Source of the DNA: Acidimicrobiaceae bacterium
Lineage (GTDB): Bacteria; Actinomycetota; Acidimicrobiia; Acidimicrobiales; Aldehydirespiratoraceae
Direction: 5' to 3'
Length of the DNA stretch: 33,716 bases
Assembly: GCA_002694825.1 (NCBI GenBank)
Contig: NZNH01000046.1
Span: forward strand, 21,545 to 55,260
Made by a program: the position numbers and the translations under genes. Position 1 is the first letter of the stretch, and each line of letters opens with the position of its first letter. The notes beneath the pieces are model-generated. The model was not told where the DNA came from. It did not search any database and saw nothing but the letters and a program-made list of their open reading frames with translations. Below, piece by piece: positions 3,067-21,971 of this stretch.

Positions 3067-4308
3067 TCAGCCCTTTACCGCTCCGGCGCCGAGGCCTTTC
3101 ACCAGGTGCTTCTGGAACAAGATGATGACTAGGACGATCGGCAGCGTGATCGACACCGATGCCGCGGCGGCTTCGGTGATCGTTCGTGAACTCTCACCAC
3201 CGGTCAATGAGACGATGGCGACCGGCAAGGTCCATTCAGTCGGCGCCAGTACACGAACGAACAGATACTCGTTATAGGCGAGGAGCAGCGTGAAGAGGCC
3301 GGTAGCGATGATCGCCGGCCACATGACGGGGATGATGACCTTGCGGAACGCCTGAACCCGAGTTGCCCCGTCCATCATCGCGGCTTCCTCGAGTTCCTTC
3401 GGTACATCCATAAAGAACGAGCGGAACATCCAAATCGTGAACGGTTGGTTCACCGCAACGAGCGCCAGGACGATACCGAGGCGGCTGTCGAGGATCTGCA
3501 ACTCGTCGATGAAGGGGAAGTCGATTAGCGGAAAGTCCCAGTCGGAGAGTCCGCTGTCGCGCAACCACCGATCGACCCGGTTGGCGCCAAAGAAATACGG
3601 CAGCACAAAGGCCGTCCGGGGAAGAGCACGAAAACCGAGTGCCACAATCAGGATCACAGCGCCAGAGATCCCGGTGTAGCGAGCGAGGCCGTAGCCCGCC
3701 AGGAGACCGATCGTGAGCGAGATCAACATGGTCAGCACCGTCACGACGATGCTGTTGATCAGGAACTCGTAGGTCGATTCAGTCTCCCAGATCTTCGGGA
3801 AGCGCCACAGCCCGTACCAGAGGGTCATCACAACGCCGCCGATGAACCAATTCTTCGGATCCCACTCCTCACGGGTGCGCATCAGGAAGACGATGATCCC
3901 GACCAGAACCAGGTACCAGACCACCGGCCAGACTCGGACGCCATCGGCAATCCACAGCAAGTGAAGACCCATGACGGCGAGGTAGCCGAGGAACCAGGGG
4001 CGACCATCGCCACCTCGGCGATTCATCACGCCGAAGAAGGCCATAACGGCCAGAACGGCAAGGACGTACCAGAGAACGTTCCAGAGGCTGGCTTCGCCAT
4101 CCTCGAACCGGTCGGTGTCGAGCCAGAAGTTGCGATAGGCGTTCCCGGTGGTCTCGTAGCCCCAGAGCACCGGCTCCTTGGACGCCACATCTCGGGTGAA
4201 CTTGATCGAGGTTTGCATCGTCCAGACGAACGGCAGGACGCTCCATACGACGAGGACGATCAGGGTGAAATGGAGACTGATTCGGCTCAGGACATTCGAC
4301 GCGCGCAT
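3067..4308 (-). CDS. ABC transporter permease, MalG/UgpE-like, with extra membrane segments
   Basis: 413-residue inner-membrane permease of the CUT1 importer. The C-terminal two thirds is canonical: FLINSIVVTVLTMLISLTIG starts the conserved core near residue 182, and the ATPase-contacting EAA loop reads ELEEAAMMDGATRVQAFRKVIIP (about 305-327). Family members are normally about 270-300 residues. Here TM1 (about 12-30) is followed by roughly 100 additional residues with about four hydrophobic stretches (about 75-95, 105-121, 126-143, 154-170) before the core. A second insertion (about 230-275) widens a periplasmic loop. The start ATG at 4308 is one base from the stop of the partner permease, with GAGGAG upstream; the longer frame to 4371 would overlap the partner by 62 bases and is not a membrane-protein N-terminus. 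Confidence 0.93.
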   Translation of the reverse strand: MRASNVLSRISLHFTLIVLVVWSVLPFVWTMQTSIKFTRDVASKEPVLWGYETTGNAYRNFWLDTDRFEDGEASLWNVLWYVLAVLAVMAFFGVMNRRGGDGRPWFLGYLAVMGLHLLWIADGVRVWPVVWYLVLVGIIVFLMRTREEWDPKNWFIGGVVMTLWYGLWRFPKIWETESTYEFLINSIVVTVLTMLISLTIGLLAGYGLARYTGISGAVILIVALGFRALPRTAFVLPYFFGANRVDRWLRDSGLSDWDFPLIDFPFIDELQILDSRLGIVLALVAVNQPFTIWMFRSFFMDVPKELEEAAMMDGATRVQAFRKVIIPVMWPAIIATGLFTLLLAYNEYLFVRVLAPTEWTLPVAIVSLTGGESSRTITEAAAASVSITLPIVLVIILFQKHLVKGLGAGAVKG

Positions 4309-4309
4309 C

Positions 4310-5176
4310 TCAGTTTCGCTCCTCGATCTGGTCCTTGTAACTGCGGTACAAGAACGGAATGAGCACGACAAAGATGCCGATCACAGTGAGGATCGACATC
4401 GCGTTGCCTTTGCCGACCCGCCCGATATCGAAGGCGGTAGCGGTCCGGACGTTGTAGACGGCCAGAGTGTGGGCGTCGGTGAACCGGTTCCCGGTCCAGA
4501 CAAAAACTTGGTCGTAGACCCGGTACATGTCCATGATCGAGATCAGGGCCACGAAGAGGATGAGGGTCCGGAGGTGCGGCAGAGTCACGTGCCAGAGTTG
4601 GCGCCAGAAACCGGCGCCGTCGATCTGTGCTGCCTCGACCCGTTCTCCGGGAAGGGTCTGCAGGCCGGCGAAGAACGTGATCATGGCGAACGGGGTCACC
4701 GCCCAGACCAGTTGGATCACGATCAGCCACCGGACGTTTCCGGCCGTGACCTCGAACGGTGAGTCGAAAACGACCTCGTAGAGCCAAGAGAGAAGACCGC
4801 CACGATCGAAAAGATCCTTGTACACCAACGAGCCGACAACCGGCGTGACGATGAATGGAGTCAGCAGCGCCGCCATATAGAACGACCGGCCGCGAGTGAC
4901 TCGATCAAGGAGCAGGGCCACACTCAAGCCCAAGAGCATCTGAATCGGCACCACGATCATGACGAGGAGGATCGTCCATCGGGCTGCGGCCCAGAACTCC
5001 GGGTCGGTAAGCAGATCTCGGTAGTTCTGCAGGCCGATGAACTCCGGGTTCTGCAGGTCGCGAAGTGTCAGTCGTTGGAAACCCAGCCAGATCGTGGCCA
5101 CCAAGGGCACGACCATCAGGGACAACATCACGGCGACACTCGGCACCGTGAAACCCCAGAACGTCCGTTTGTTCAT
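4310..5176 (-). CDS. ABC transporter permease, MalF/UgpA-like
   Basis: 288 residues with six predicted membrane segments, the normal length for this family. It begins MNKRTFWGFTVPSVAVMLSL and carries the EAA loop ERVEAAQIDGAGFWRQLWHVTLP (about residues 185-207), which docks onto the ATPase. It pairs with the permease encoded one base downstream to form the translocation pore of the importer. The ATG at 5176 is preceded by GGGGGAGC; the upstream in-frame extension to 5353 is Arg/Pro-rich, lies over the intergenic hairpin, and is rejected. It follows the solute-binding gene after a 91-base gap that holds a hairpin. Confidence 0.94.
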   Translation of the reverse strand: MNKRTFWGFTVPSVAVMLSLMVVPLVATIWLGFQRLTLRDLQNPEFIGLQNYRDLLTDPEFWAAARWTILLVMIVVPIQMLLGLSVALLLDRVTRGRSFYMAALLTPFIVTPVVGSLVYKDLFDRGGLLSWLYEVVFDSPFEVTAGNVRWLIVIQLVWAVTPFAMITFFAGLQTLPGERVEAAQIDGAGFWRQLWHVTLPHLRTLILFVALISIMDMYRVYDQVFVWTGNRFTDAHTLAVYNVRTATAFDIGRVGKGNAMSILTVIGIFVVLIPFLYRSYKDQIEERN

Positions 5177-5213
5177 CCGCTCCCCCGCGGTGTGTGGATA
5201 GGGGCCCTCCCCC

Positions 5214-5241
5214 GGGGCGGTGCCGTTGCCGACACCGCCCC
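5214..5241 (-). terminator. Intergenic hairpin between the binding-protein and permease genes
   Basis: GGGGCGGTG (5214-5222) pairs perfectly with CACCGCCCC (5233-5241) around a 10-base loop. It lies 26 bases after the stop of the solute-binding protein and 37 bases before the permease start. No T-run follows, so a full intrinsic terminator is unlikely. In many ABC import operons such a hairpin stabilises the upstream binding-protein message or weakens read-through, so more binding protein than permease is made; that role here is inferred. Confidence 0.6.
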
Positions 5242-5267
5242 AGGTCCTGGAGGCACCGTATGTGGCC

Positions 5268-6680
5268 TTAGCTGAGCAGACCCTGTTCGCCGGCTTCGGC
5301 GAGGTAGGCCTCTTCGGCGGCAGCAAGCGCATCTTCGACGGACGTGCCGTCAAGAATGGTCACCAGCGCCTCACCCAGCTTGGCGCGGGCGATGCCGGCA
5401 GCCGGGTGGGTCAGGTCGGCACCACGGCCGTTGACGAGGGAGGCTTGGGCGGCAGCAGCGTCACGCGGACCGTTGGGGTGGCTGACGCCGGTTCGGGTCA
5501 CGAGGCCGAACTCAGCAGCAGCTTCCATCGACTCGAGATCGGTGGCAGCAAGCGCCGCAAGGAAGATCGCGTCCACATCACCCTCGACGCCAACCGGGAT
5601 GCCCCAGCCGTCGATGTAGGCGGGAGCGGCCGCAATGCCCTGACCCGACGTCAGTGCCTGGGCGTACTGGATGTCACCGACAACGGTCGATGCTTCAGGG
5701 TCGTCCATGGCAGCTGCACGAGAAGCCCACGTGTGACCGAGAATGGCCTCGCCGGTCTGGAAGGCGGCCTGAAGGTCGTCGGTGCTGTAGCTGGCCGACG
5801 CGTTCGGGGCGCACTGTTCCCACATGTTCTTGAGCGTGGTCGCAGCCTCGATACCCTCGGGGCTGTTGAAGTTCGGCTGACCGGTCGTGGGGTCGATCGG
5901 CGACACGCCGAGCGAGCCAAGGACCGAGTCGAACTCGATCTGCCAGGCCCAACCGGCCGACAGCATGTAGAGGAAGCCGATGTCGTAGCCAGCATCCTGG
6001 ATGGCGGCGCACGCAGTGAAGGCCTCGTCGAAGGTGGTCGGAACCTCGACACCGATCTCGGCGAGAGCCGGCTCGTTGTAGAACACGTGCATGGTGTTCG
6101 ACACCATCGGCACGGCGTAGATCTGGCCGTCGATGGACGCCATGTCCCAGAACGCTTGGTCGATCTGATCCAGATCGAACTCATCGCGGTACTTGTCGAC
6201 AAGATCGTTGAGCGGCATCAAGAAGCCCTGGTTGGCAAGCTCGCCGATGAACGCGTTGGAGCCCTGGTAGAGCTCAAAGGTCGGGGCGCCGGTAGCGGCG
6301 TCCTGCGTCATCGCGCTGCGGGCCTCCGTGCTGTCGAGGAACTGGTAGTTCAGCTCGTAGTTGCCGTCGGTGCACTCCTCGAGTTCCGCCGCAAAGGCGG
6401 TGATGATCGGGAACTCCCAGCCCATCACGTCCAGCTCGACGGTCTCCTCGGGGTTGGGAATGGCACACTCGTCGGAGATGAGCTCGGCGACCACCTCGTC
6501 GTCGTGCTCCTCACCGTCGTCGTGGTCGTCGTCGGTTGCCTCCGACGACGAGTCGGATTCGCCTGCGGTGTCTTGCGAGGCAGTGTCACCTTCGTCGTCA
6601 TCGCCGCATGCGGCACTCACGACCGTGAACGCCAAGAGGACGGCCAGGAGCCGCCACCAGCGCTTTGTTGTTGCATTCAT
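5268..6680 (-). CDS. ABC transporter extracellular solute-binding lipoprotein (family 1, CUT1 type)
   Basis: 470 residues. The N-terminus MNATTKRWW is followed by a hydrophobic stretch LLAVLLAFTVVSAAC ending in a lipobox (SAAC, Cys at about 25), so the mature protein is a lipid-anchored surface receptor. Residues 26-70 form a highly acidic, Ser/Thr-rich linker that includes a DDDHDDGEEHDDE cluster. The folded domain has family-1 features: FPIITAFAAELEE, QGFLMPLNDLVDKY, IDGQIYAVPMVSNTMHVFYNEPAL, and PTTFDEAFTAC. The pattern resembles binding proteins for sugars and related polar compounds. ATG at 6680 has GGAGGGG eight bases upstream and overlaps the hydrolase stop by four bases. The ligand cannot be read from sequence. 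Confidence 0.95.
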   Translation of the reverse strand: MNATTKRWWRLLAVLLAFTVVSAACGDDDEGDTASQDTAGESDSSSEATDDDHDDGEEHDDEVVAELISDECAIPNPEETVELDVMGWEFPIITAFAAELEECTDGNYELNYQFLDSTEARSAMTQDAATGAPTFELYQGSNAFIGELANQGFLMPLNDLVDKYRDEFDLDQIDQAFWDMASIDGQIYAVPMVSNTMHVFYNEPALAEIGVEVPTTFDEAFTACAAIQDAGYDIGFLYMLSAGWAWQIEFDSVLGSLGVSPIDPTTGQPNFNSPEGIEAATTLKNMWEQCAPNASASYSTDDLQAAFQTGEAILGHTWASRAAAMDDPEASTVVGDIQYAQALTSGQGIAAAPAYIDGWGIPVGVEGDVDAIFLAALAATDLESMEAAAEFGLVTRTGVSHPNGPRDAAAAQASLVNGRGADLTHPAAGIARAKLGEALVTILDGTSVEDALAAAEEAYLAEAGEQGLLS

Positions 6681-7390
6681 GTGGAATACCCCTCCATGGT
6701 GGGTTGTGTGTGGACAGTGGTGATCCAGCCGCGGAGCGCTGAGGACAGCGCCTCGGGCTGATCGAGTGTGACGAGGTGTCCAGCCCCATCGAACCCGACC
6801 AGCTCCGCATCGGATCGGTAGGCCACCAGCTCTGCGTGCAGGGCGGGCGGACAAACGGCATCGGCGAACCCAAAGCCGACGAATACTGGGCCGGGGAAGC
6901 GGCTCAGCTCTCGACGACGATCACGGGTGCGATGCAAGAGTGCATGGTTCTGGTTCAAGAACGCCTTAGGGCCGATCGCCATCGCCATGTCGACGACGAG
7001 CGGGCCGTGGGTGATGGGGTCGACGGAAAGGCTGGGAACCATCTCCTCCACGACAACGGGAAGCAGCCCGGCACGAACATCGGATTGCCAGCGTTCGCGG
7101 CGTTCAACCTGGGCCGGATCGACGGGTGCCAGGTTGGTATCGAGCAAGGCAAGCCCTGCGACACGCTCTGGCGCAAGGCCCGCAATCTCGGCAGCAACGA
7201 TGGCGCCGAGCGAAAGCCCGATGGCGATGAAGCGCTCAGGGGCATCGGCGAGGACGTCTTGCGCCATGCCGCCGATCGAGTCGCGGCTCGTCAGGTCGGC
7301 GTGCACGATCGAGTGTTCGCCGAGGTCGAGCGCAGCGAACACTCGATCGTCACACAGCGAACCGGGCAGCAACACGATCGGCAGGCTCAC
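6677..7390 (-). CDS. Alpha/beta-hydrolase fold protein
   Basis: 237 residues. It starts SLPIVLLPGSLCDDRVF, where LLPG is the usual oxyanion-region strand and loop. The nucleophile elbow reads GLSLGA (GxSxG), and the likely acid and base are the Asp in GFADAVCPP and the His in GAGHLVTLDQP. That completes a Ser-Asp-His triad, so the enzyme is probably active on an ester, thioester or lactone (inference). GTG at 7390 overlaps the cupin stop by four bases (GTGA), with GGAGGG upstream; the longer frame to 7489 begins in Arg-rich nonsense inside the cupin gene. It sits between cupin and binding-protein genes in the operon. The exact substrate is unknown. Confidence 0.88.
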   Translation of the reverse strand: MSLPIVLLPGSLCDDRVFAALDLGEHSIVHADLTSRDSIGGMAQDVLADAPERFIAIGLSLGAIVAAEIAGLAPERVAGLALLDTNLAPVDPAQVERRERWQSDVRAGLLPVVVEEMVPSLSVDPITHGPLVVDMAMAIGPKAFLNQNHALLHRTRDRRRELSRFPGPVFVGFGFADAVCPPALHAELVAYRSDAELVGFDGAGHLVTLDQPEALSSALRGWITTVHTQPTMEGYST

Positions 7391-8508
7391 GACCCGACCC
7401 TCCGCAAGAGCGAGATCGGAGCTGTTGCGCCTGCGGCATCGAGCCCCCAGCCTGCCTCGGCAGCCGCCGTGGCGACGTCGGCGTGCCACTCGAGCCGGGT
7501 CGGAGAGTCCGACCCGTTGACGATGACGGCAAGGGCGGGTTCGGCACCGATATTGAGGAAGTCACGCCAAACCCCGCTTGGCACCGAGACGATGCTTCCT
7601 GGTGACGGCGCCTCGCGTTCACGTTCGTCGCCTTCGCCGAGAACGATCTCCCAATCGCCCTCGACGCAGAACATCACCTGCGTGTCGCTGTGCCGATGGA
7701 TCCCCGTGCGCTCTCCCGGCGCGACACGTAGCCACTCAAGCGAGAAGCCGTGCGGGGTGGTGATCGGCGGCTGCTGATGGCGGTCCTGACTCATGCCGTG
7801 ACCCACAACAGGAGCCAACTCGCCACCAAGACCGTCAACAAAGGACGACAGCAACGCCCTTGAGGACCACGCGAGGTCGTCGCGGCCGACACGACGGGCA
7901 GCGAGGTCAGCGTCGCTGTACCAGTCGATGTCGCCAAGCTGATCGGCCGTGAGCGGCTCGATCACGTCGGCGGGGACGGCCCCTTCGGCCTCAATGACAG
8001 CGTTGTCGAGGCCGAGATACAGCCCCGTCTCGGCGGCCCGCTCGAGGACCGACGGTGCCCAGATGATTCCGCCCGTGTTGTCCTCTCCAAGAACCACGAA
8101 AAGCCAGCCGTCGTCGGGCCCGGTGTTGGTGAAACCTCGGAAGATCCACGGCGGTGCGCTGAAGACGTCACCGGCACGAACGGTGAGGGTCTGCTCAGCG
8201 TGCTCACCGAAGTCGAAGCGCCATTCACCCCGAGTGCAGAGGAACAATTCGACCGTGTAGTGCAGGTGTGGGTTGTTGGTGACACCGTGAGGCATCGAGG
8301 CAGCACCCACGTTGAAGCCATGCGGTTCGACGAGGTTGATGGTCTGGGCTGCGTTCTGCGAGACACCAGGGCCGATGAAGGAATATGACGCCTTTCCGAC
8401 CGAACCTTCGATCTTCACGTCAACGAAGGCGCTCGTGTCAGCAACGAAGTCCGACGGTTCGATGATGCGCCGGCGGAGGCTCGACGTCTCAGGCGGCGTG
8501 ATGGTCAT
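7387..8508 (-). CDS. Double-cupin (bicupin) protein
   Basis: 373 residues with two cupin barrels. The first (about residues 60-140) has PHLHYTVELFLCTRGEWRF, with the HxH...E metal-binding pattern, and ends in a GDVFSAPPWIFRGFTNTG-type motif 2. The second (about 255-340) has GIHRHSDTQVMFCVEGDWEI, then VPSGVWRDFLNIG. HxH plus Glu is kept in the first barrel; in the second the HxH is kept but the Glu position is Gln or Val. At least one metal site is therefore plausible. Bicupins include dioxygenases, isomerases and decarboxylases, and some are only binding proteins. ATG at 8508 overlaps the SDR stop by four bases. The function in this pathway is unknown. Confidence 0.85.
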   Translation of the reverse strand: MTITPPETSSLRRRIIEPSDFVADTSAFVDVKIEGSVGKASYSFIGPGVSQNAAQTINLVEPHGFNVGAASMPHGVTNNPHLHYTVELFLCTRGEWRFDFGEHAEQTLTVRAGDVFSAPPWIFRGFTNTGPDDGWLFVVLGEDNTGGIIWAPSVLERAAETGLYLGLDNAVIEAEGAVPADVIEPLTADQLGDIDWYSDADLAARRVGRDDLAWSSRALLSSFVDGLGGELAPVVGHGMSQDRHQQPPITTPHGFSLEWLRVAPGERTGIHRHSDTQVMFCVEGDWEIVLGEGDEREREAPSPGSIVSVPSGVWRDFLNIGAEPALAVIVNGSDSPTRLEWHADVATAAAEAGWGLDAAGATAPISLLRRVGS

Positions 8509-9248
8509 GCCACCCCCAGAGGTCGGCCACCATCAACGTTGACGATGGAACCGGTACTGCACGGGAGATCGCGGATGACCGCCGACACTGCGGCGGCGAC
8601 ATCATCACCAGTAGCAAGACGGCGAAGCGGTGTTGCGTCGCGTTGGGCGGCGATGACATCTTCGGGCATTCGGGCGGCGTAGTCCCCCATGACCCAACCC
8701 GGAGAGACCGACATGATCCGGATGGATGGGGCGAGGGCTCGGCCTAGCGAGCGGGTCATCGAGTCGAGAGCGGCCTTCGATGCGCAGTACGCAACGTTGG
8801 AACCCTGGCCGGTGATACCGGCGACCGAACTGATGTTCACGATGATCGGATCGGGTGCCGCCTCAAGCAGCGATCGAAATGCTCGAATCGTGGCGAATGG
8901 ACCGCGCCAATTGGTGACGAAGATCTGGTCAATGAGGTCGTCGTCAAGGGCGTCGAGATCGTCGTGCGCGACCGGGCGAGTTACCCCTGCACAGTTGACA
9001 AGCGCATCGATGCGGCCCTCGGTGGAGGCGACGGCAGCAGCGACGGCCGCGAGCGCCTCGCTGTCATCGACCGGGACCTGCAGTGCTCGATGCCCTTCGC
9101 CGGTCAACTCGGACACGACTCGATCGGCGCGATCGACCGACGCTCGGTAGCCGACCAGGACACGCATGCCGTCGGACGCGAGCCGGCGACTAATGGCGGA
9201 ACCGATACCGCCACCACCACCGGTCACGAGTGCGACGGGCGATGTCAT
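8505..9248 (-). CDS. Short-chain dehydrogenase/reductase (SDR, FabG-like)
   Basis: 247 residues, standard classical-SDR length. The cofactor loop is TGGGGGIG (about 9-16), followed by NCAGV (NAG motif). The catalytic Ser lies in VNISSVAG and the Tyr/Lys in YCASK. The C-terminus has GSIVNVDGG, as in FabG-type enzymes. The segment [10 protein letters not shown] after beta2 (Arg near residue 35) is compatible with NADP(H) preference, which is an inference. It probably oxidises or reduces a hydroxyl group of a pathway intermediate, next to the HisD-family enzyme. ATG at 9248 overlaps the HisD-like stop by four bases, so the genes are translationally coupled. Confidence 0.92.
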
Positions 9249-10528
9249 CCCTGCGCCCCCGAATAGCGCTCAACACGGATATCGGCCTGCGCCTGGTGGC
9301 CAGCGAAGTTCTCGATCGCGCACAGCCGGCTGCAGTACTCCCCGATCATCGCAGAAGAGGCCGGGTCCGAGACCCGCTGGTAGGTCACCGTCTTGATGAA
9401 CTTTCCGACCCACAGGCCACCGGTGTAGCGAGCCGCACCCTGCGTCGGCAGCGTGTGGTTGGTACCGATGACCTTGTCACCGAAGGACACGTTGGTCATC
9501 GGACCGAGGAACAGCGCTCCGTAGTTGTACATATTGGCCAAGAAGAAGTCATCGTCGTTCGTCATGATCTGAACGTGCTCGAACGCCATCTCGTTGGCGA
9601 TCTCGAGCATCTCCTGGTTGTCCTCGCACACGATGACCCGCCCGTAGTCACGCCACGCGACTGCTGCGATATCCGCCGTGGCGAGGGTCTCGAGCTGACG
9701 ATCAACCTCGGCGATCGTGGCGAGTCCGAGTTCTCGGCTCGTCGTGAGGAGCACAGCAGGTGAGCTCGGGCCGTGCTCTGCTTGACCAAGGAGATCGGTT
9801 GCGCAGATCTCCGCGTCGACCGTGTCGTCGGCGACAACGAGCGTTTCCGTGGGACCGGCCGGCAAGTCGATACCGACGCGGCCATAAAGCTGTCGCTTCG
9901 CCTCGGCAACAAAGGCATTGCCAGGACCCACGATGATGTCAACCGGATCGACAAACTCGGTGCCGATCGCAAGCGAAGCGATCGCCTGGATGCCACCCAG
10001 GAGATAGATCTCGTCAGCGCCAGCAAGGTGCATTGCGGCGACCGTCTCGTTGGGCACGGCGCCGTTGATCGGCGGGGTGCACGCAGCGACACGGGGTACA
10101 CCTGCGACCTTGGCCGTGAGCACACTCATGTGCGCTGAGGCGACCATTGGGTAGCGGCCGCCCGGAACATAGGCGCCAACGGCGCGCGCCGGGATGTGCT
10201 TGTGGCCGAGCGTGACGCCCGGCAGGGTCTCGACCTCAACGGGCAGCATCGAGTCAAGTTGGGCCTGAGCGAAGCCGCGGATCTGCGTTTGAGCGAACTT
10301 GATGTCGGCAATCGTCTCGGGAGCGACGCTCGCAACTGCCGTTTCGATCTGCTCCGGGGTGAGACGGAACTGTTCGGGCTCCCAGTTGTCGAACTGGGAG
10401 GACAGTTCGCGAACGGCGGCCTCACCGCGGTTCTCGATGTCGGCGATGATGCCGTGCACTTTCTCGGTGAGGGCGAAGTCGGCGCCGTGAGCGCCCTTGG
10501 ACGTTGCGTCCTTGAGGATCTCAGCCAT
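9245..10528 (-). CDS. Histidinol-dehydrogenase-family oxidoreductase (catabolic paralogue)
   Basis: 427 residues, the normal HisD length. Metal and catalytic positions of the family are recognisable: QAEH (Gln and His ligands), FEH (catalytic Glu-His), the Asp in [11 protein letters not shown], and the late His in ENFAGHQ. HisD enzymes oxidise an alcohol to a carboxylate in two NAD+-dependent steps. The context (LacI regulator, ABC importer, no other his gene) and the motif [14 protein letters not shown] argue for a catabolic paralogue of the kind that includes sulfopropanediol 3-dehydrogenase (HpsN), not histidine biosynthesis. The subfamily resemblance is from memory and not tested. Start: ATG at 10528, preceded by AGGAAGG, overlaps the lacI stop by eight bases; the extension to 10642 lies within lacI. 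Confidence 0.9.
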
Positions 10529-11561
10529 GGTCCTTCCTGGATTCGAAAATGGATGAAGACTTCGTGGTGCGGCCGAGGCGGAGCTCGCCAGCAACGACGA
10601 TGTCGGCGGGCTCCGGCTCGGATGGTCCGAGGAGAAGCGCAATCGCCTGCTCGACGAGCAACTCGACAGGCTGGGTCAGCGTGGTGAGGTCGTAGCCAGC
10701 CCACGAGGCCTGTGGAAGACCATCGAAGCCGGTGACCATGACCTCGGTAGGCACCGAGACTCCCCGGTCCTCCAGCGCATCGATCACCCCGAACGCAAGC
10801 TCATCGCCCGCCACCATGATGGCGTCGGGAAGCTCGCCGAGTTCGACGAGCTCGCGTGCTGCGCCGTAGCCATGCTCGTAGGCCCACCCGCCAGACTCGG
10901 TGTAGGGACAGGCGATACCAGCCTGAGCAAGCGCTTGCGCCGCACCGCGATAGCGGGTCTGGTCGGTGGAGGTCGCAGCAACACCACCGATGTACGCCAC
11001 CCGACGTGCACCGTTTTCGACGACGTGAGCCGCAAGGCGGCGCATACCGAGATCGTTGTCGACCGAAACCGACGGCACGAGGCCGGAGGCAGCCGGCTGG
11101 TTGAACGCTACGAGCGGCAACTGCTGTGATCCGACGCGCGCAAGGCGCCCGGCATCAATGCTCGCTGATGCGAGGATCACACCATCGACGCGGTACTGCG
11201 CAAGCGAGGTGAGCACGTCCTCGAGTTGGGCCGGGTCGGAGAAGCTGAAGAGGAGCAACTGCTGACGGCGATCGGCGAGTTGCTTGGAAAAGGCGGTGAG
11301 GACGCTTTGCCAGTACTCGCCGACTGACGGCACGACGGCAGCGATGATGTTGGTGCGCTGAGACTTCAGACTGCGGGCAATGGCGTTCGGCACATAACCG
11401 AGTTCGGCAGCTGCTGCCTCGACCCGCTTGCGGGTTGCCGGAGCCACCTTCTCGGGGCTCGAGAAGGCGCGCGCAACGGTGGCTTGAGAAACACCGACGT
11501 GGGCTGCGACATCCGTCGACGTCACAGAACCCCCGGCACGCTGTGAGGTACTCCCAGCCAA
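10521..11561 (-). CDS. LacI-family transcriptional regulator
   Basis: 346 residues. The helix-turn-helix (about residues 13-35, [20 protein letters not shown]) is followed by the hinge helix NAIARSLKS, whose Leu normally inserts at the central CpG of the operator. Residues 65-340 are a periplasmic-binding-protein-like effector domain ([60 protein letters not shown]). It is the first gene of the catabolic operon. It probably represses its own promoter and that of the 11656-12624 gene through the twin palindromes, with a pathway sugar or derivative as inducer (inference). The start taken is TTG at 11561, because AAAGGA lies seven bases upstream and it follows the predicted transcription start by about 20 bases; GTG twelve codons later is an alternative. 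Confidence 0.93.
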
Positions 11562-11587: not shown

Positions 11588-11617
11588 AGCATTGATGACT
11601 ACGTAGTCATTTGTCAA
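11588..11617 (-). promoter_or_regulatory. Predicted promoter of the lacI-headed catabolic operon
   Basis: On the minus strand a perfect -35 box TTGACA (11617-11612) is followed, after 18 bases, by AATGCT (11593-11588). The palindromic operator fills the spacer. Transcription would begin near 11581, giving a leader of about 20 bases to the TTG start of lacI. The -10 match is weak (3 of 6), but the -35 match and operator placement support it. Confidence 0.6.
11595..11610. promoter_or_regulatory. Operator 1: 16-bp perfect palindrome, probable LacI-family site
   Basis: ATGACTACGTAGTCAT is its own reverse complement. It is even-length with a central CG, as LacI-family operators usually are, and lies between the predicted -35 and -10 of the lacI operon. 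The same 14-bp core recurs at 12638-12651. Confidence 0.82.
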
Positions 11618-11626
11618 GCGCAGGCA

Positions 11627-11641
11627 GGTGAATCATTCACC
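11627..11641. promoter_or_regulatory. Second inverted repeat upstream of the lacI promoter
   Basis: GGTGAAT (11627-11633) and ATTCACC (11635-11641) form a perfect odd palindrome around one base. It lies 10 bases upstream of the -35 box and 15 bases after the stop of the 11656-12624 gene. It could be a binding site for another regulator, or a weak hairpin (5-bp stem, 5-base loop) ending the upstream transcript. I saw no second copy in the intergenic regions I read. Confidence 0.4.
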
Positions 11642-11655
11642 ACGCCGCTTCGAGA

Positions 11656-12624
11656 TCAGCCCGTCGCGAGCAGGATCTGTTTCCAAACGGCCGTCTCGTC
11701 GAAGATCACGAACTCTCGACGAAGACCCCACGGTCCGTACTCGGCGTGGCTCAGACCCATCACATGAACCGGCGCGCCGGTCGGCGCCCCGAACGCACCC
11801 CAGCCACTATGGGTGCCATCAAGCGACCAGCGGATCGCAGCCCGCGGTGCGGACCCGTCGTCGTTGCGGCCGATCTGATGGTGAATCGTGAAGGTGGCGT
11901 CAGGGAATGAGGACCGCAGACCCAACCAGAACTCGTCGGCATCAGACCAACCGTGACCGGTGACTCCCCCAGGCAATTCGAGCTGGCAAGCTCGGTCGTA
12001 GTCGCGCTCGATGGCGGCAAAGTCAGCGGCCATGATCGCGTTGAGGGTCGCGGCGTAGCGATGACCGGGCTCCCCGTCATTTCCCGTTCCCGTGTAACCG
12101 CCCTGCCGGTCGATTGCAGGCGTGAAAGGACGCACGCACGCCTCGTAACCACCTTCGGCCTCGATCAGGTCGGCGGCATAGCGCTTGGGGTCTATGCCGA
12201 GCTGCCGCACGATGGCGCCCTGGTCACGAATAAGCCACTCGTCGAAAATCTGATTGTCCTTTGCCGCACAGTCGGCGATGATCCGGTACCTCAGCTGCGC
12301 ACCGGATGCAGCGCCGTAGACGCCATCGCCTGCGTGCGTTGCCGTGGAGTAGATCCGGTGGCTCGAGAGGAATCCGCTCTCCTCATCCCCCGACCAGATG
12401 ACGTCCTCGCCCAGCAACTGGCGGTCCGGGAATTCGGCAAGTGTCGCCATGGTGGCCGCGATCACACCCTGATTACCGACAACGACTCCACTCGGCGAGC
12501 GCACGACGATATCGGCGGCGTAGTAGTCGTTCAGGGTCGAAATCCCTCGGTCTTCCCAGATCTCCTTGGTGATCTTGATGATGTAGTCGGGCAGGTCTGC
12601 GAACGTTGGATCAAAGCCCTTCAT
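11656..12624 (-). CDS. Tandem SnoaL-like protein (second copy)
   Basis: 322 residues, again with two NTF2/SnoaL-like halves (about 10-150 and 185-320). The first has LNDYYAADIVVRSPSGVVVG, then FPDRQLLGEDVIWSGDEE and QIFDEWLIRDQGAIVRQLG. The second has DEFWLGLRSSFPDATFTIHHQIG, RWSLDGTHSGWGAFGAPTGAPVHVMGLSHAEY and a closing REFVIFDETAVWKQIL. The pattern RWSLDGTHxG...PTGxPVxVxG is typical of SnoaL/ester-cyclase relatives. It lies upstream of lacI on the same strand but has its own operator-controlled promoter. The predicted -10 ends seven bases before ATG 12624 and no ribosome binding site is visible, so the mRNA is probably leaderless. Function unknown. Confidence 0.85.
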   Translation of the reverse strand: MKGFDPTFADLPDYIIKITKEIWEDRGISTLNDYYAADIVVRSPSGVVVGNQGVIAATMATLAEFPDRQLLGEDVIWSGDEESGFLSSHRIYSTATHAGDGVYGAASGAQLRYRIIADCAAKDNQIFDEWLIRDQGAIVRQLGIDPKRYAADLIEAEGGYEACVRPFTPAIDRQGGYTGTGNDGEPGHRYAATLNAIMAADFAAIERDYDRACQLELPGGVTGHGWSDADEFWLGLRSSFPDATFTIHHQIGRNDDGSAPRAAIRWSLDGTHSGWGAFGAPTGAPVHVMGLSHAEYGPWGLRREFVIFDETAVWKQILLATG

Positions 12625-12631
12625 GGACGCG

Positions 12632-12660
12632 ACCGTATGACTACGTAGTCAAGCTGTCAA
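12632..12660 (-). promoter_or_regulatory. Predicted leaderless promoter of the 11656-12624 SnoaL-like gene
   Basis: Minus strand: TTGACA (12660-12655), 17-base spacer, TACGGT (12637-12632), seven bases, then ATG at 12624. The transcription start would coincide with the A of the start codon. Operator 2 occupies most of the spacer. Confidence 0.68.
12638..12651. promoter_or_regulatory. Operator 2: 14-bp perfect palindrome, probable LacI-family site
   Basis: TGACTACGTAGTCA is an exact repeat of the core of operator 1. It lies in the -35/-10 spacer of the minus-strand promoter and about 50 bases upstream of the divergent SMP-30-like gene, so one site may control both directions. Confidence 0.82.
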
Positions 12661-12703: not shown

Positions 12704-13600
12704 ATGTCGAACCCCGATGTCCGAGCTGCCGTCGCCACCCCTGCGCTGCTTGGCGAATGCCCACTTTGGGCACCCGAAGAAGGCCTCCTCTACTGGCTCG
12801 ACATCGAGGGGCGGGTCCTCCACCGATACGACCCAACGGCCGGCACCAACGAAACCCGTGGCATGCCAGGACGGCCCGGCGCTGCTGCGCTCGGCCCCAA
12901 TCCGGGCGAGCTCATCATCGCAATGGAACATGAACTCGTCCGCTTTTCTTGGGACGACCCTGCCTCACTCCAACCGATCCGTGCGCTCGAAGCGGCCAGA
13001 ACCGGAAATCGACTGAACGACGGCCGGACCGACCCAGCAGGTCGCTTTGTCGTCGGTTCCATGTGGGCGGACCCGGCAGCCGGAAAGGCCACCGGCACGC
13101 TCTACCAGGTGGACGACACGGACTGTCATCACCTCCGAACTGGCGTCGGCTGCCCCAACGGACTCGCCTTCGACGCAGTTCGGCAGCGGGTCTATTGGAC
13201 CGACACCCCGACCGAGCGCATCGTTGTTGCCGACTACGACGCCGAAACCGGCGCATGGGAGAACGAGCGACTGTTTTTCGACTACACCGACCTGCCCGGA
13301 AAGCCGGACGGTGCCTGCATCGACGTCGAGGGCGGGTACTGGTCTGCGTCCGTCTACGGCTGGGCAGTGATCCGGATCTCACCTGAGGGCACGGTCGATG
13401 CTCGCATCGACCTACCGGTTGAAAAGCCGTCGATGCCCGCCTTCGGTGGTCCGGGACTCGAAACGCTGTACGTGACGACCATCGGAGCGGGAGGCGGTGT
13501 TCCTTCGGCACCAGGCCGCGATGGGTTCATTCCCGGCTCATTGCTAGCGATCGACGGTCTCGGCGTAGCGGGCTTCACCGATCCGCCGTTTGCGGGCTGA
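12704..13600 (+). CDS. SMP-30/gluconolactonase-like protein (sugar lactonase family)
   Basis: 298-residue six-bladed beta-propeller of the SMP-30/regucalcin/gluconolactonase family. These enzymes use one divalent metal to hydrolyse aldonolactones. The usual metal ligands are in place: Glu in LLGECPLW, Asn in NRLNDGRTD, Asn in CPNGLAF, and Asp in GKPDGACID. Blade repeats such as VYWTDTPTERI and GGYWSASVYGWAVIRISPEG are clear. ATG at 12704 (MSNPDVRAAV) matches the family start better than GTG at 12686; no strong ribosome site is seen. It is divergent from the SnoaL-like gene, shares the operator region with it, and probably belongs to the same regulon. That suggests a lactone intermediate in the pathway (inference). 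Confidence 0.92.
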   Translation: MSNPDVRAAVATPALLGECPLWAPEEGLLYWLDIEGRVLHRYDPTAGTNETRGMPGRPGAAALGPNPGELIIAMEHELVRFSWDDPASLQPIRALEAARTGNRLNDGRTDPAGRFVVGSMWADPAAGKATGTLYQVDDTDCHHLRTGVGCPNGLAFDAVRQRVYWTDTPTERIVVADYDAETGAWENERLFFDYTDLPGKPDGACIDVEGGYWSASVYGWAVIRISPEGTVDARIDLPVEKPSMPAFGGPGLETLYVTTIGAGGGVPSAPGRDGFIPGSLLAIDGLGVAGFTDPPFAG

Positions 13601-13660: not shown

Positions 13661-14053
13661 CTATTCGCCAGCTGCGACCCGGATCCGCACCTCGGCACGG
13701 GCCTTGTCGTAGGCGGCACCTGCATCGTCGGCATCGGCCGAGAGCGCCTGTTCCGCCTCAGCGAGGGCCCGCTCGGCTCGGGGTACGTCGATCTCGTCCT
13801 TGGCCTCGGACACGTCGGACAGGATCGTGATGTCGGTGTCGCTGACCTGCACGAAGCCGCGGTGGACGGCGAAAGTGTCGCGGGATCCGTCCTCTTTGAC
13901 GACGTCGACCGACCACACCTGGAGGATCCCGATGAACGGGATATGACCGGGCTGGAAGGCAATGTCGCCACCCTCGACGGTGCGAGCGACGACCATCGAA
14001 GCCTCACCGGTGTACGACACCGATTCGGGAGAGACGACCTGGACGTTGAGCAT
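13661..14053 (-). CDS. atpC: F1Fo ATP synthase epsilon subunit
   Basis: 130 residues, normal for the family. The N-terminal beta-sandwich (about 1-85) contains VVSPESVSYTGEASMVVARTVEGGDIAFQ, GHIPFIGIL and HRGFVQVSDTDITILSD. The C-terminal helical part (about 90-130) is Ala/Glu/Asp-rich (RALAEAEQAL). Epsilon links the gamma stalk to the c-ring and can inhibit ATP hydrolysis. It is the last gene of the atp operon, 35 bases after atpD. ATG at 14053 has GAGGAACC just upstream. Confidence 0.97.
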   Translation of the reverse strand: MLNVQVVSPESVSYTGEASMVVARTVEGGDIAFQPGHIPFIGILQVWSVDVVKEDGSRDTFAVHRGFVQVSDTDITILSDVSEAKDEIDVPRAERALAEAEQALSADADDAGAAYDKARAEVRIRVAAGE

Positions 14054-14088
14054 GGTTCCTCTGTTCTCGGAGTGTTCCGATCAGCCGA

Positions 14089-15597
<1,509 letters not shown>

Positions 15598-16590
15598 TCA
15601 GCCCTCGTTCGTGGGGTCGGAAGCGGTGGCGGACTCGGGCGTTGCGCCGATCTGGGCGAACATGCCCTCGAGATCGATCGCCTGAGCACCATCACCGCTC
15701 TCATCAAGCGCCTCGGCACCACCGACGATCTCCATGATCTCGGTGGTGATCGCGGCCTGACGAGCAGCGTTCATCTGACGGCTGAGCTTGGTGATCAGCT
15801 CTTCGGCGTTGTCGGTGGCTGACTTCATCGCCCGCTGGCGGTTGGCGTGCTCTGACGCTGCGCAATCGAGCAACGCACCGAAGAGGCGGGCCTCGATGTA
15901 GCGAGGAAGTAGCGCTTCGAGCACCGAGTCGGGCGACGGCTCGAACTCGAAACTGGCGGCGGCCTCCGCATCGCCACCGCCGGACTCGGCCATGACGGCG
16001 GTGTCCTCGAGCGGCAGGAAACGGCGGACCGACACGCGCTGGGTGCCCATCGAGATGAACTCGGTGTAGATGAGTTCAACCTCGTCGATTTCGCCACTGA
16101 TGAACGCCGCAGCGACATCGTCGGCGATCCGGCGGGCGTCTTCGTACGACGGATTGTCGGTGAAGCCCTGGTAGTCGTAGTCGACCCGGTAGTTGCGGAA
16201 GGTGAAGTAGGCCGCCGCCTTCTTGCCGACGCAGAACAGGGCGTAGTCCTTGCCCTCGGCACGGTGACCCTGGAGCTGACGCTCCGCGGCACGAATCGGG
16301 TTGGTGTTGTAGGCACCGGCAAGGCCGCGGTCGCCGGCCATGACGATGAAGCCGACCTTCTTGACCTCGTCGGCTTGGCGCAGCAACGGGTGGTTGGTCT
16401 CGGCGCCGCCGGCCGCCAGGTTCTCGATGACCGAGGTGATCTGCCGCGAGTAGGGACGCGCTGCATCGGCGCGCTGCATCGCCTTCACCACGCGGGTGGC
16501 GGCGATGAGCTCCATAGCTCGGGTGATCTTTTTGGTGGATTGAACGCTGGAGATCCTGCGACGGAGCTCGCGTTCCTTACCTCCCGGCAT
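15598..16590 (-). CDS. atpG: F1Fo ATP synthase gamma subunit, with C-terminal extension
   Basis: 330 residues; most bacterial gammas are about 285-305. The N-terminal helix KERELRRRISSVQSTKKITRAMELIAA and the C-terminal family signature ARQAAITTEIMEIVGGAEAL are both present, so the rotor shaft is complete. About 35 further residues follow the signature (acidic, Gly/Ala/Ser-rich, probably flexible). An internal acidic/Ala stretch GGGDAEAAASFEFEP (about 205-220) is also longer than in E. coli. Gamma transmits rotation between the c-ring and the catalytic alpha3beta3 head. It starts eight bases after atpA. Confidence 0.97.
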   Translation of the reverse strand: MPGGKERELRRRISSVQSTKKITRAMELIAATRVVKAMQRADAARPYSRQITSVIENLAAGGAETNHPLLRQADEVKKVGFIVMAGDRGLAGAYNTNPIRAAERQLQGHRAEGKDYALFCVGKKAAAYFTFRNYRVDYDYQGFTDNPSYEDARRIADDVAAAFISGEIDEVELIYTEFISMGTQRVSVRRFLPLEDTAVMAESGGGDAEAAASFEFEPSPDSVLEALLPRYIEARLFGALLDCAASEHANRQRAMKSATDNAEELITKLSRQMNAARQAAITTEIMEIVGGAEALDESGDGAQAIDLEGMFAQIGATPESATASDPTNEG

Positions 16591-16598
16591 GAGTTACC

Positions 16599-18221
16599 TC
16601 AGTCCTCGTCGCGGGTGATGTCTTCTTCGGGCAGGGTGGTGTCGGAGTCGACGAGCTCGGCCTGGGCATCGCCCTGGGCCTCGGCGTCGGGCTCGGCGCC
16701 AGAACCATCGGAGGTCTGGAACTGCTCGGCGAAGGCCTTGATGCCGGCTTCGAAGGCGTCCTCGTCGGGGATGACGCCATCGTTCTTGATCGAGTTCATG
16801 ATGTCGGCGTGGCGGGTGCGGAACCACTCGAGGAGCTCGGCCTCGAAGCGCAGCACATCCTCGACAGGCAGGGCGTCGAGGTAGCCGCGGGTACCGGCGT
16901 AGATCGACACGGTCTGCTCGTCGACGGGGTACGGGCTGTTGACGCCTTGCTTCAGGAGCTCGGTCAGACGGTAGCCACGTTCGAGCTGGGCCTTGGACAC
17001 GGCGTCGAGGTCGGAACCGAAGGCGGCGAACGCCTCGAGCTCACGGAACTGCTGCAGGTCGCCCTTCAGCGTGCCGGTCGCCGTCTTCATCGCCTTGACC
17101 TGCGCAGCCGAACCGACTCGGGACACCGAGATACCCACGTCGACGGCGGGGCGGATACCCGACTTGAACAGGTCGTCCTGAAGGAAGATCTGGCCGTCGG
17201 TGATCGAGATCACGTTGGTGGGAATGAACGCCGACACGTCGCCGGCCTTGGTCTCGATGACCGGGAGTGCGGTGAGCGAACCGGCGCCGAGCTCGTCGGA
17301 GAGCTTGGCGGCCCGCTCGAGGAGGCGCGAGTGGAGGTAGAACACGTCACCGGGGAAGGCCTCGCGGCCCGGCGGGCGGCGCAGCAGCAGCGACACCTGA
17401 CGGTAGGCCTCGGCCTGCTTGGAGAGGTCGTCGTAGACGATGAGCGAGTGCTCGCCGTTCTCCATCCAGTGCTGGCCCATGGCGCAACCGCCGTAGGGAG
17501 CCAGGTACTTGAACGGTGCCGGGTCGGAAGCCGGGGCGACCACGACGGTGGTGTACTCCATAGCCCCGAGCTCTTCGAGCGTGGCAACCGACTGGGCAAC
17601 GGTCGAGGCCTTCTGACCGATCGCCACATAGATGCACTTCACGCCCAGACCCTTCTGGTTCAGGATCGTGTCGAGCGCAATGGTGGTCTTGCCGGTCTTG
17701 CGGTCGCCGATGATCAACTCTCGCTGGCCACGGCCGACCGGGATGAGTGAGTCGATCGACTTGATGCCGGTCTGCATCGGCTCGTGCACCGGCTTGCGAC
17801 CGGTGATGCCCGGCGCCTGGATCTCCATACGGCGGGGCTGCACATTGGTGAGCGGACCCTTGCCGTCGACCGGCTCGCCGAGCGGGTTGACGACACGGCC
17901 CAGCAGGCCGTCGCCGACGGGCACGGACAAGATGTCGCCGGTGGCGACCACAGTCTGGCCTTCCTCGATGCCTTCGACATCGCCGAGGACCACGGCGCCG
18001 ATCGAATCCTCGTCGAGGTTGAGGGCGAGACCGACGAGACCGTTCTCGAAGCGGAGCATCTCGTTGACCGCCGCGTTGGGCAGGCCCGACACGCGTGCAA
18101 TGCCGTCGCCGACCTCGAGCACCCGACCGACGGTGGTCTGCTCGACCGAGGGGGTGAAGCCCTCGAGGTTCGCCTTCAGCGCTGCGGTGATCTCATCGGT
18201 GTTGATCTGCAGATCAGCCAT
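16599..18221 (-). CDS. atpA: F1Fo ATP synthase alpha subunit, with acidic C-terminal tail
   Basis: 540 residues. Non-catalytic nucleotide-binding subunit of F1. The P-loop is [15 protein letters not shown]; the Arg-finger region and the signature [17 protein letters not shown] are present. The N-terminal delta-binding helix is [21 protein letters not shown]. The conserved fold ends near AFAEQFQ (about 508), and about 32 very acidic residues follow ([14 protein letters not shown]..., ending DITRDED). Mycobacterial alpha subunits also carry a C-terminal extension that suppresses ATP hydrolysis, but the sequence here is not obviously the same. Start ATG 18221, with AGAGAGAT upstream. Confidence 0.98.
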
Positions 18222-18281
18222 TTTCGTCTATCTCTCTGGTGTGAAGTTCTGGGTGGGGCGGTGAATCGTTGGAGTGACAGG

Positions 18282-18806
18282 TCAGCCGATATGGCTCTTG
18301 ACCTGGGCGAGGCGGCTGCGGACGCTGCCGTCGATGACGGTGTCGCCGATCGTGGTGACGATGCCCCCAAGCACGGAGGGATCGACCGTCACGCGAACGT
18401 CGACATCCTTGCCGGTCGCCTGCTTGAGCGAGGCGGCGAGGCGCGACACCTGATCCTCGGAGAGGGCCACGGCGGAGCGAACCTCGGCGACGTCTCGGCC
18501 GCTGGCGGTGGCCAGCTTGGCGACGAGGGCCCGAGCGATGGCCGGGAAGTCACCGGCCCGACCAGCGCCGACGACGAGCGACACGGCGGCGGTCGTGACA
18601 TCGGAGGCCTTCCCCTGGAGGAGGTCTTCAACGATCTGCTGACGGGTGGCGGCCGGCACGTGGGGGTCGGCGAGGGTGTTGCGCAACTCGTCGTTGGCTT
18701 CGAGGGCCTGGGCGAAGCGCAGGATCTCGTCGTCGGCCCCCGTATCGCCCTCGGCTCGCAGCACAGCGAGGAGAGCGGCGGCGTAGGCGTCGATGGTGTC
18801 GCTCAT
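18282..18806 (-). CDS. atpH: F1Fo ATP synthase delta subunit
   Basis: 174 residues, normal length. The N-terminal helical domain starts DTIDAYAAALLAVLRAEG. The C-terminal domain has the family signature GKDVDVRVTVDPSVLGGIVTTIGDTVIDGSVRSRL (about 135-168). Delta joins the b-type peripheral stalk to the top of F1. In mycobacteria delta is fused to a b-like segment; here it is a free protein 22 bases after the second b-type gene. Confidence 0.96.
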   Translation of the reverse strand: MSDTIDAYAAALLAVLRAEGDTGADDEILRFAQALEANDELRNTLADPHVPAATRQQIVEDLLQGKASDVTTAAVSLVVGAGRAGDFPAIARALVAKLATASGRDVAEVRSAVALSEDQVSRLAASLKQATGKDVDVRVTVDPSVLGGIVTTIGDTVIDGSVRSRLAQVKSHIG

Positions 18807-18828
18807 GAGATGGTCTTTCGTTCCGCGG

Positions 18829-19353
18829 TCAGCTGGCGCCGACGCTGGAGATGTAGTCGTCGATCAGTGCGGACTGGGTGGAGTCGTCGAGGTTGTTGCG
18901 CACCACGGCGTCAGCCGCAACGCGAGCCTGCTCGGCAACGGCGGCCCGAAGGTCGGCCAAAGCCTGGTCGCGCTGGGCGGCGACCTCGATCCGGGCCCGT
19001 TCCTTGGCCTCGGCGACGTCGCTTTCTGCCCGAGCGATCAGGTCTGCCTCGAGGCGGGTGGCCTGGTCGCGAGCGTCGGCAATGATCGCTTCGGCTTCGG
19101 CGCCGGCGTCACCGAGCGAGGAGGTCAGGGCCTCCAACTCGGCCTCGGCCTCAGCCTTGGCCTGCTCGGCCTCGGCGAGTTCGCCCTCGACCTTGGCAGA
19201 GGTCGCCTTCATGGCGGCCTTGATGGCAGGCACGCCCTTCATGACGAACACCACGGCGATGATAAGGAACGCAGCCGAGCCCCAGTAGAGCTCGTTGGGA
19301 TCGCCGGGGATCCAGTTCCCGTTTGGTCCTTCGGCGGCGAAGATTCCGATCAT
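18829..19353 (-). CDS. atpF: F1Fo ATP synthase b-type subunit, second copy
   Basis: 174 residues. One membrane segment near residues 25-43 (WGSAAFLIIAVVFVMKGVPA) is followed by a long Ala/Glu-rich coiled coil (about 50-150) and a short C-terminal region (NNLDDSTQSALIDDYISSVGAS) that should bind delta. The N-terminal 20 residues (FAAEGPNGNWIPGDPNELY) are probably outside the membrane core. Together with the b subunit encoded just upstream it could form a heterodimeric peripheral stalk. The paired arrangement resembles b/b' of photosynthetic bacteria, or the b-delta fusion partner of mycobacteria before fusion. ATG at 19353, 11 bases after the preceding gene. Confidence 0.93.
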   Translation of the reverse strand: MIGIFAAEGPNGNWIPGDPNELYWGSAAFLIIAVVFVMKGVPAIKAAMKATSAKVEGELAEAEQAKAEAEAELEALTSSLGDAGAEAEAIIADARDQATRLEADLIARAESDVAEAKERARIEVAAQRDQALADLRAAVAEQARVAADAVVRNNLDDSTQSALIDDYISSVGAS

Positions 19354-19364
19354 GGTCGTCTCCT

Positions 19365-19901
19365 TCAGTCGGCCGAGAGGGCCTGGTCGATGACGGACTG
19401 CTGGTTGCCGGCGTCGAGATCACGGCCGAGCACGATCTGTGCGGCCCCGACGGCAAGCGACGAGACGTCGCCTCGCATGCCGGAAAGCGCTTCGGCTCGA
19501 GCCTCATCGATCTCGGCTTGTGCACTGCGCCGCATCTCGGCGATTTCCGTGTCGGCCTCGGCCTGCAGCGCAGCGCGACGCTCGTCGGCGGCGGCACGCG
19601 CCCCGGCGAGGATGGCGTTGGCTTCGGCACGAGCCTCCGCAAGGGTGGCCTCGTGGTCCCGGCGAGCCGAGCCAAGCGCAGCGGTGGCCGCATCGGCGGC
19701 GTCCTTGCCCGACTGGATGGTGCTGGAACGCTCCTCCATTGCCCGCAAGATCGGGGGCAGGAGGACGAACTTCATCATCGCCCAGAGGGCGAAGAAGAAG
19801 ATCGCCGCCCAGACGATCTCGTTCTCGACGGGAATGACGGGGTTCGGCGGATCGCCGGCCTCTTCTTCGGCCGCTACAACGATGGCCAAGAGATTGATCA
19901 C
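19365..19901 (-). CDS. atpF: F1Fo ATP synthase b-type subunit, first copy
   Basis: 178 residues. A short N-terminal stretch (LLAIVVAAEEEAGDPPNPVIP) is followed by one membrane segment (IVWAAIFFFALWAMMKFVLLPPI, about 30-52), then a long polar coiled coil ending in VGAAQIVLGRDLDAGNQQSVIDQALSAD, the delta-contact region. The start of the coiled coil (ILRAMEERSSTIQSGKDAAD) matches the classic b pattern. It follows atpE after 91 bases that hold a strong hairpin. ATG at 19901 has an AGGTGA-type site upstream. Confidence 0.95.
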   Translation of the reverse strand: MINLLAIVVAAEEEAGDPPNPVIPVENEIVWAAIFFFALWAMMKFVLLPPILRAMEERSSTIQSGKDAADAATAALGSARRDHEATLAEARAEANAILAGARAAADERRAALQAEADTEIAEMRRSAQAEIDEARAEALSGMRGDVSSLAVGAAQIVLGRDLDAGNQQSVIDQALSAD

Positions 19902-19951
19902 GGATTCACCTCAGGTGGTACGGGTGACGAACGGATGTTCAGAACAGTGCA

Positions 19952-19972
19952 CCGGGTCGGCAAACGACCCGG
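19952..19972 (-). terminator. Hairpin between atpE and the first atpF gene
   Basis: CCGGGTCG (19952-19959) pairs perfectly with CGACCCGG (19965-19972) around a 5-base loop. It lies about 20 bases after the atpE stop on the minus strand. There is no T-run. A likely role is to stabilise the atpE message or reduce read-through, since the c subunit is needed in many copies per complex (inference). Confidence 0.6.
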
Positions 19973-19992
19973 GACGCCGACAGGCGGCGGAA

Positions 19993-21114
<1,122 letters not shown>

Positions 21115-21118
<4 letters not shown>

Positions 21119-21624
21119 TGGTGCTCCTTGGTTTCGGAGAGGTCGGAGATCGTTGGGCTGTTGCTGGCCTGGGCGGCGTCGAGTCCGGGCTTCGGCTTCA
21201 GCCCGGGAAAGGCTAGCGAGGCGGACACGAAACGCATCTCCCAGAACAACAATCCAAGATGGGTGATGATGAGCGTGAGCCCGAGGGGGATCAGCTCGAC
21301 CCAGGCGGCGTCGCGAACGAGCAACACGGCCAGGGTGATGAGACCAAGGCGGATCAAAAACCCGAAGAGGGCCACGCCCGCCATGAGGGCGATCGAGATG
21401 CGGGCCGCAAAGCCGAGCGACCAGGCCGCCAGCAAGAAGTTCACGACCACGATGGCCAGGGCATAGGCGACCGACACAGCCCCGTCCGTGCCCCAGAAAA
21501 TGGCGCCGACCATTGCCGCCACCGGGGCGATCAATGCACCTCGACGAGCGAGGTCTTTCGCCACCTCGACGGCGGGCGACGGACCTTCCATGCGCATGGC
21601 GAGGGGGTTGGCCGGGGCGTTCAC
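21115..21624 (-). CDS. Small membrane protein of the atp operon, ATP synthase I (UncI)-like
   Basis: 169 residues with about four hydrophobic segments between residues 28 and 125 (ALIAPVAAMVGAIFW, VAYALAIVVVNFLLAAW, ISIALMAGVALFGFLIRLGLITLAVLLV, IPLGLTLIITHLGLLFWEM), then a polar tail. Position before atpB and overall layout match AtpI/UncI-type proteins, which in other bacteria help c-ring assembly or Mg2+ supply. Direct sequence signatures are weak, so the family call rests mainly on location and topology. ATG at 21624 overlaps the preceding stop by four bases. Confidence 0.75.
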
Positions 21625-21971
21625 GACTCGGATCCCTCGAGCGGCATCGAGTCGATTTCACCGGTGAGGTCTCGGACTGGGCGGGCGCCGAGTTCGGCTG
21701 CCTCCGCTCGAAGACGCGCCGCTTCTTCGCGGACTGCAGCGACGTGTTCGGCTGCTTCGGTCATACCTCGCTGGTAGTCGTAATAGACCTTCAGGACGGC
21801 GCCGACCGTGCCGAACGCGAGAAAGGCGAGCATGAAGACGGGTCGGGTGCCGGCGGCGGAGTCGATCCAGAGGCCGAGGAGCGCAATGAGCACGGGGGCG
21901 AGGACGAGGTCGAAGCCACCACTTGAGCGCCAGATGGCGTCGTGGAGATCGCGCTTTGCCGCAGCGTCCAT
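21621..21971 (-). CDS. AtpZ/AtpI-like membrane protein, first gene of the atp operon
   Basis: 116 residues. Two hydrophobic segments (about 18-35, GFDLVLAPVLIALLGLWID, and 42-60, PVFMLAFLAFGTVGAVLKVYY) with the conserved GLWIDxxxGTRPVF turn between them, the AtpZ/AtpI_2 pattern. A polar helix and a 40-residue Glu/Ala/Arg-rich tail follow. In other bacteria such proteins form a complex with AtpI and assist Mg2+ or Ca2+ transport or ATP synthase assembly. ATG at 21971 (MDAAAKRDLHDA) has GGGGACAG upstream; the extension to 22070 covers the promoter region and is rejected. Confidence 0.82.
   Translation of the reverse strand: MDAAAKRDLHDAIWRSSGGFDLVLAPVLIALLGLWIDSAAGTRPVFMLAFLAFGTVGAVLKVYYDYQRGMTEAAEHVAAVREEAARLRAEAAELGARPVRDLTGEIDSMPLEGSES

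Follow-up and report, generated by a model that had tools for sequence, protein, structure and literature searches.

The window, a 33,716-nucleotide stretch of an Acidimicrobiaceae bacterium genome (contig NZNH01000046.1, positions 21,545 to 55,260 of the forward strand), carries two identical palindromes that flank a gene for a SnoaL-like protein and adjoin a gene of the LacI family. The locus raises the question of whether these palindromes are operators, which protein would bind them and which genes would be controlled from them. They are very probably the operators of a local, autoregulated LacI-family repressor (11561-10521, minus strand), which would act by occluding two promoters.

Palindromes and promoters

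Two exact copies of the palindrome TGACTACGTAGTCA are present in the window, at 12638-12651 (operator 1) and at 11596-11609 (operator 2), confirming the twin identical 14-bp palindromes with a central CG that were reported in the preliminary description, which was also right that they flank the gene at 11656-12624 and are neighbours of the LacI gene. The copy at 12638-12651 is 14 bp long, and the copy at 11596-11609 is contained in a 16-bp perfect palindrome, ATGACTACGTAGTCAT, at 11595-11610. No further match to TGACTACGTAGTCA with up to three mismatches was present in the window, and shuffled sequences gave a mean of 0.51 such matches per window, with exact matches far rarer. A search of the whole genome at up to one mismatch had been proposed in the preliminary description as a check, with many unrelated copies counting against the proposal; in the assembly (2.73 Mb in 107 contigs, 89 % complete) a pattern search recovered the two window copies as the only sites with zero or one mismatch. 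Three sites with two mismatches were found, a count similar to that for a reversed control pattern; two of them fall clearly within an acyltransferase-like reading frame, one of these repeating the sequence on a different contig, and the remaining site overlaps a long open frame. A candidate for a further operator at window position 19895 was rejected and taken as a chance match, as it scored 11.7 with the ortholog matrix, below the ortholog sites (at least 16.8). The exact 14-mer was also found in 92 stretches of IMG/VR, which are probably the chance background of a very large collection.

Among other genomes of the order, the exact 14-mer is present in six, and in five of these it lies directly upstream of the LacI ortholog. 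In the sixth (G090) it stands at 9478-9491 of locus L156 within a response-regulator gene, where it codes for DYVV (in GADDYVVKP), and genes of this kind will give false matches in naive palindrome scans. The 14-mer can thus arise in coding DNA, but a chance palindrome or a coding-sequence motif is an extremely unlikely account of the window copies, both of which are intergenic, lie in promoters and are conserved across families.

Both promoters are read on the minus strand. Promoter 1, upstream of the SnoaL-like gene, consists of a TTGACA -35 box (12660-12655), a 17-nt spacer of which operator 1 forms the last 14 nt, a TACGGT -10 box (12637-12632) and 7 nt before the ATG at 12624; because the predicted transcription start falls at the start codon, the mRNA of this gene is probably leaderless. 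Promoter 2, upstream of lacI and the downstream operon, has a TTGACA -35 box (11617-11612) followed by operator 2, a weak -10 region (11595-11588) and purine-rich sequence leading up to the TTG start codon of lacI at 11561; the -10 candidates are TCAATG, CAATGC and AATGCT, at spacers of 16, 17 and 18 nt, respectively. The preliminary description had placed each operator between a perfect TTGACA and a -10-like box on the minus strand, which holds for both TTGACA boxes and for TACGGT, the lacI-side -10 being weak. A plain sigma-70 consensus scan called neither promoter and found no promoter or terminator, a null result that is not decisive because the conserved -10 box is TANNNT rather than TATAAT. 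The conserved layout is TTG-N16/18-TANNNT with the operator within the spacer. Of 33 sites upstream of lacI orthologs, 29 have the TTG in place; the operator is followed immediately by TANNNT, an element that the window genome lacks here, in 26, and TTG and TANNNT occur together in 26; at the sites upstream of the SnoaL-like gene, TTG and TANNNT are both present in 11 of 15. A -10 box six to eight nt before the ATG of the SnoaL-like gene was also seen in the relatives L134, L148, L155 and L190.

The LacI-family regulator and its proposed mode of action

The regulator gene lacI (10521-11561, minus strand) codes for a protein of 346 amino acids with the recognition helix SQATVAR and the hinge SLKSQRT. 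An N-terminal helix-turn-helix domain (PF00356) and a C-terminal periplasmic-binding-like domain (PF13377/PF00532) were both identified above gathering score, and the best solved relative is CcpA of Bacillus (1zvv/1rzr, E about 2e-39), with which the protein shares, by sequence, the full-length LacI-family fold; CcpA is a global regulator, whereas the protein described here appears to serve a one-locus regulon. Even palindromes with a central CG are the norm for LacI/GalR operators (PMC4052901), and the recognition code of the family links Arg20 to G at -6 and Leu54 to the central CG (PMC2978694). In 20 aligned orthologs Q26, T28, V29, R31, L65 and K66 are invariant and the hinge motif SLK is present in all 20; the central CG is invariant in 32 ortholog sites, and the invariant R31 is matched by an invariant G at the operator position corresponding to -6. 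On its domain composition and on the match of hinge Leu to central CG, the protein is assigned to the LacI/GalR family.

A search of 397 genomes of the order gave LacI orthologs with 53 to 65 % identity in 22 genomes besides that of the window. When up to three mismatches are allowed, 33 of 34 loci have a site ahead of lacI, against a chance expectation of 0.5 % in Markov shuffles, and 15 of 31 have one ahead of the SnoaL-like gene, against 0.6 %; these counts overstate the independent evidence in that orthologous loci share ancestry. The position of operator 2 and its retention in nearly every locus are those expected of a regulator that controls itself and its neighbours from a site ahead of the operon that encodes it. 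The earlier proposal that the palindromes define the regulon of the adjacent LacI protein is supported at the level of sequence by the co-occurrence of site and LacI ortholog, the location within the promoter spacer and the covariation of recognition helix and operator, with the reservations that the twin layout is common and not universal and that the lacI-side -10 is weak.

In the proposed mechanism, a LacI dimer would occupy each operator when the small-molecule inducer is absent, with the hinge helix inserted at the central CG, and its position in the spacer between the -35 and -10 boxes would close both promoters to RNA polymerase. Promoter 1 would serve the SnoaL-like gene, and promoter 2 would serve lacI together with about ten downstream genes (HisD-like, SDR, cupin, hydrolase, ABC importer and further SnoaL genes). 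A nutrient, or an intermediate formed from it, would then free the operators of the repressor. The sites, their conservation, their co-occurrence with the regulator and their location in promoters can be read from the sequences; binding by LacI, repression rather than activation, the inducer and the operon transcript are inferred.

Three other readings keep the sites functional. Activation is known for some members of the LacI family, and the protein might act here as an activator or as a dual regulator, which is considered quite unlikely, as the site fills the spacer between the -35 and -10 boxes in most loci, the position of a repressor. It is very unlikely that a different regulator, encoded elsewhere, uses the sites and that the LacI protein is a passenger: although binding of LacI at these sites is itself a prediction, the presence of the site tracks the LacI ortholog, the operator has the central CG and architecture of the LacI type, and it is altered where the recognition helix is altered. 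The last point comes from genus g2 (L141-L144), in which the helix reads SQATVGR, an Ala-to-Gly change from SQATVAR, and lacI is preceded by two altered operators in tandem, TGCTTACGTAAGCA and TGACTACGTAAGCA, with a spacing of about 23 bp; this covariation of helix and operator counts as one evolutionary event.

The remaining reading accepts both the sites and the regulator and has a LacI tetramer bridge the operators, 1042 bp apart, by looping the DNA between them, as in the lac operon of E. coli. Two identical strong sites, present as a pair in roughly half of the loci, are compatible with such a loop, but it is improbable, as the spacings in relatives (for example 987, 1038, 1055, 1065, 1083, 1089 and 1224 bp) have no common helical phase and simply track the length of the SnoaL gene, many loci have a single site, and the tail beyond residue 315 does not align with E. 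coli LacI. Neither the helical phasing nor the tetramerisation tail of a lac-type looping tetramer was thus seen, and separate occlusion of the two promoters by dimers is the preferred reading.

Co-occurrence of operator, regulator and target genes

Searches for TGANTACGTANTCA gave 17 matches in the 23 genomes that carry lacI, all at this locus, and no match in 23 relatives that lack lacI. The SnoaL-like gene likewise had no match at E <= 1e-20 in these 23 lacI-less relatives; that search had no internal positive control, and the same query finds homologs in the lacI-bearing loci. Neither lacI nor the SnoaL-like gene was found in the four genus-mates that were searched, which suggests recent gain or loss of the cluster. 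From these patterns of co-occurrence it appears that operator, regulator and target genes are gained and lost together, even within the genus of the window. The regulon directly adjoins an ATP synthase operon (window 13661-21661).

Nearly all of the 20-kb neighbourhoods contain genes for a SnoaL-like protein, LacI, a HisD-like enzyme, a short-chain dehydrogenase/reductase (SDR), a cupin, a substrate-binding protein, two permeases, more SnoaL-like proteins and an ABC ATPase. In L149, L150 and L152 lacI, the operator and the importer are kept and the HisD-like gene is absent from the stretch read, so this enzyme does not appear to be a constant part of the pathway.

The same switch is seen again in distantly related bacteria. 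In an Acidobacteria MAG with a LacI protein of 46 % identity, TGAATACGTATTCA takes the corresponding place in the promoter, between TTGACA and TAATCC. Plasmids of Ruegeria and Paracoccus carry a homologous ABC/HisD/SnoaL/cupin/LacI operon, preceded by a pair of TGCATACGTATGCA-like sites within the divergent intergenic region; similar sites were found in Octadecabacter (two), in Ensifer (one) and in Vibrio pelagius, though the last has no LacI gene in the stretch of the cluster that was read. These Proteobacterial operators were located by motif search of short intergenic regions. The distant operators have a TACGTA core with few changes and TG and CA at their ends. In Rhodobacterales plasmids (L234, L235, L238 and L239) MetE-like and RraA-family genes are added to the cluster in several cases.

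The predicted target genes and their possible substrate

The gene between the two operators (11656-12624, minus strand) codes for a SnoaL-like protein with two SnoaL domains, homologs of which, at 60 to 75 % identity, stand beside lacI in most related loci. Downstream of lacI on the same strand follow the genes for a HisD-like dehydrogenase (9245-10528), an SDR (8505-9248), a double-cupin protein with weak likeness to gentisate 1,2-dioxygenase (7387-8508), an alpha/beta hydrolase (6677-7489), an ABC substrate-binding protein of the carbohydrate type, supported by ortholog synteny (5268-6719), ABC permease 1 of the UgpA/MalF type (4310-5353), ABC permease 2 of the UgpE/MalG type (3067-4371), a second double SnoaL-like protein (2034-3065), a single-domain SnoaL-like protein (1438-2058) and an ABC ATPase of the MalK/UgpC type (260-1441). 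From lacI through the ABC ATPase the genes overlap or abut on one strand, and a single operon transcript would fit this arrangement. An SMP-30/gluconolactonase-like gene (12704-13600, plus strand) is divergent from operator 1 and is a possible third target of the regulator; an SMP-30-like gene is also found beside the locus in L135, L136, L138, L151, L152, L154, L159 and L160.

The arrangement resembles that of the local LacI/GalR repressors of sugar catabolism compiled in RegPrecise (PMC4052901), which likewise combine a helix-turn-helix with a periplasmic-binding-like domain, bind an even palindrome with a central CG near the start codon, regulate themselves and control an ABC importer together with catabolic genes. 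It differs from them in its targets: in place of a classical sugar pathway, the predicted regulon comprises SnoaL-like proteins together with a HisD-like dehydrogenase and a cupin. No named ortholog was found. In the open-licence literature, supplementary regulon tables aside, neither the operator string nor the gene combination was found to be described. The mechanism of the switch is thus of the textbook LacI-family kind, and the regulon is, as far as could be found, undescribed. For an uncharacterised LacI-type regulator of the Acidimicrobiales, most of which are uncultured, the analysis provides an exact operator, the two promoters targeted and a regulon confined to one locus. Since the operon is present or absent together with its operator and regulator, the regulator could be used as a sensor for the substrate of a widespread ABC-importer/SnoaL/HisD-like cluster.

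The nature of that substrate was approached through the HisD-like enzyme, which is closest to the 2,3-dihydroxypropane-1-sulfonate (DHPS) 3-dehydrogenase HpsN (8v35, E 1.5e-112). The catalytic Glu-His and Asp-Lys residues and the metal ligands appear to be retained in the alignment with HpsN. A diagnostic feature of HpsN is the sulfonate-binding His126 in the motif GRY(A/S)H (PMC11382572), whereas all 18 of the orthologs read here have GRYPM, with Met at the His126 position, and PM is also present in Alphaproteobacterial homologs. The interpretation of the cluster as a DHPS degradation operon was accordingly not accepted. The motif GSAPL of HisD from histidine synthesis is also lacking, GRYPM being found at the same place. 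The GRYPM signature possibly marks a third substrate class of HisD-type dehydrogenases, and a sugar-like or polyol-like substrate may be guessed from the importer class and the SMP-30-like protein. A broader proposal, put forward tentatively and with somewhat less than even confidence, is that the LacI protein serves as sensor for an undescribed catabolic regulon of Actinomycetota, Acidobacteriota and Proteobacteria, with a near-fixed TACGTA-core operator, for the degradation of an abundant marine or soil compound through several SnoaL-like enzymes and a third, GRYPM-bearing class of HisD-type enzyme that would act on neither histidinol nor DHPS. In public records the dehydrogenase of such clusters is labelled histidinol dehydrogenase.
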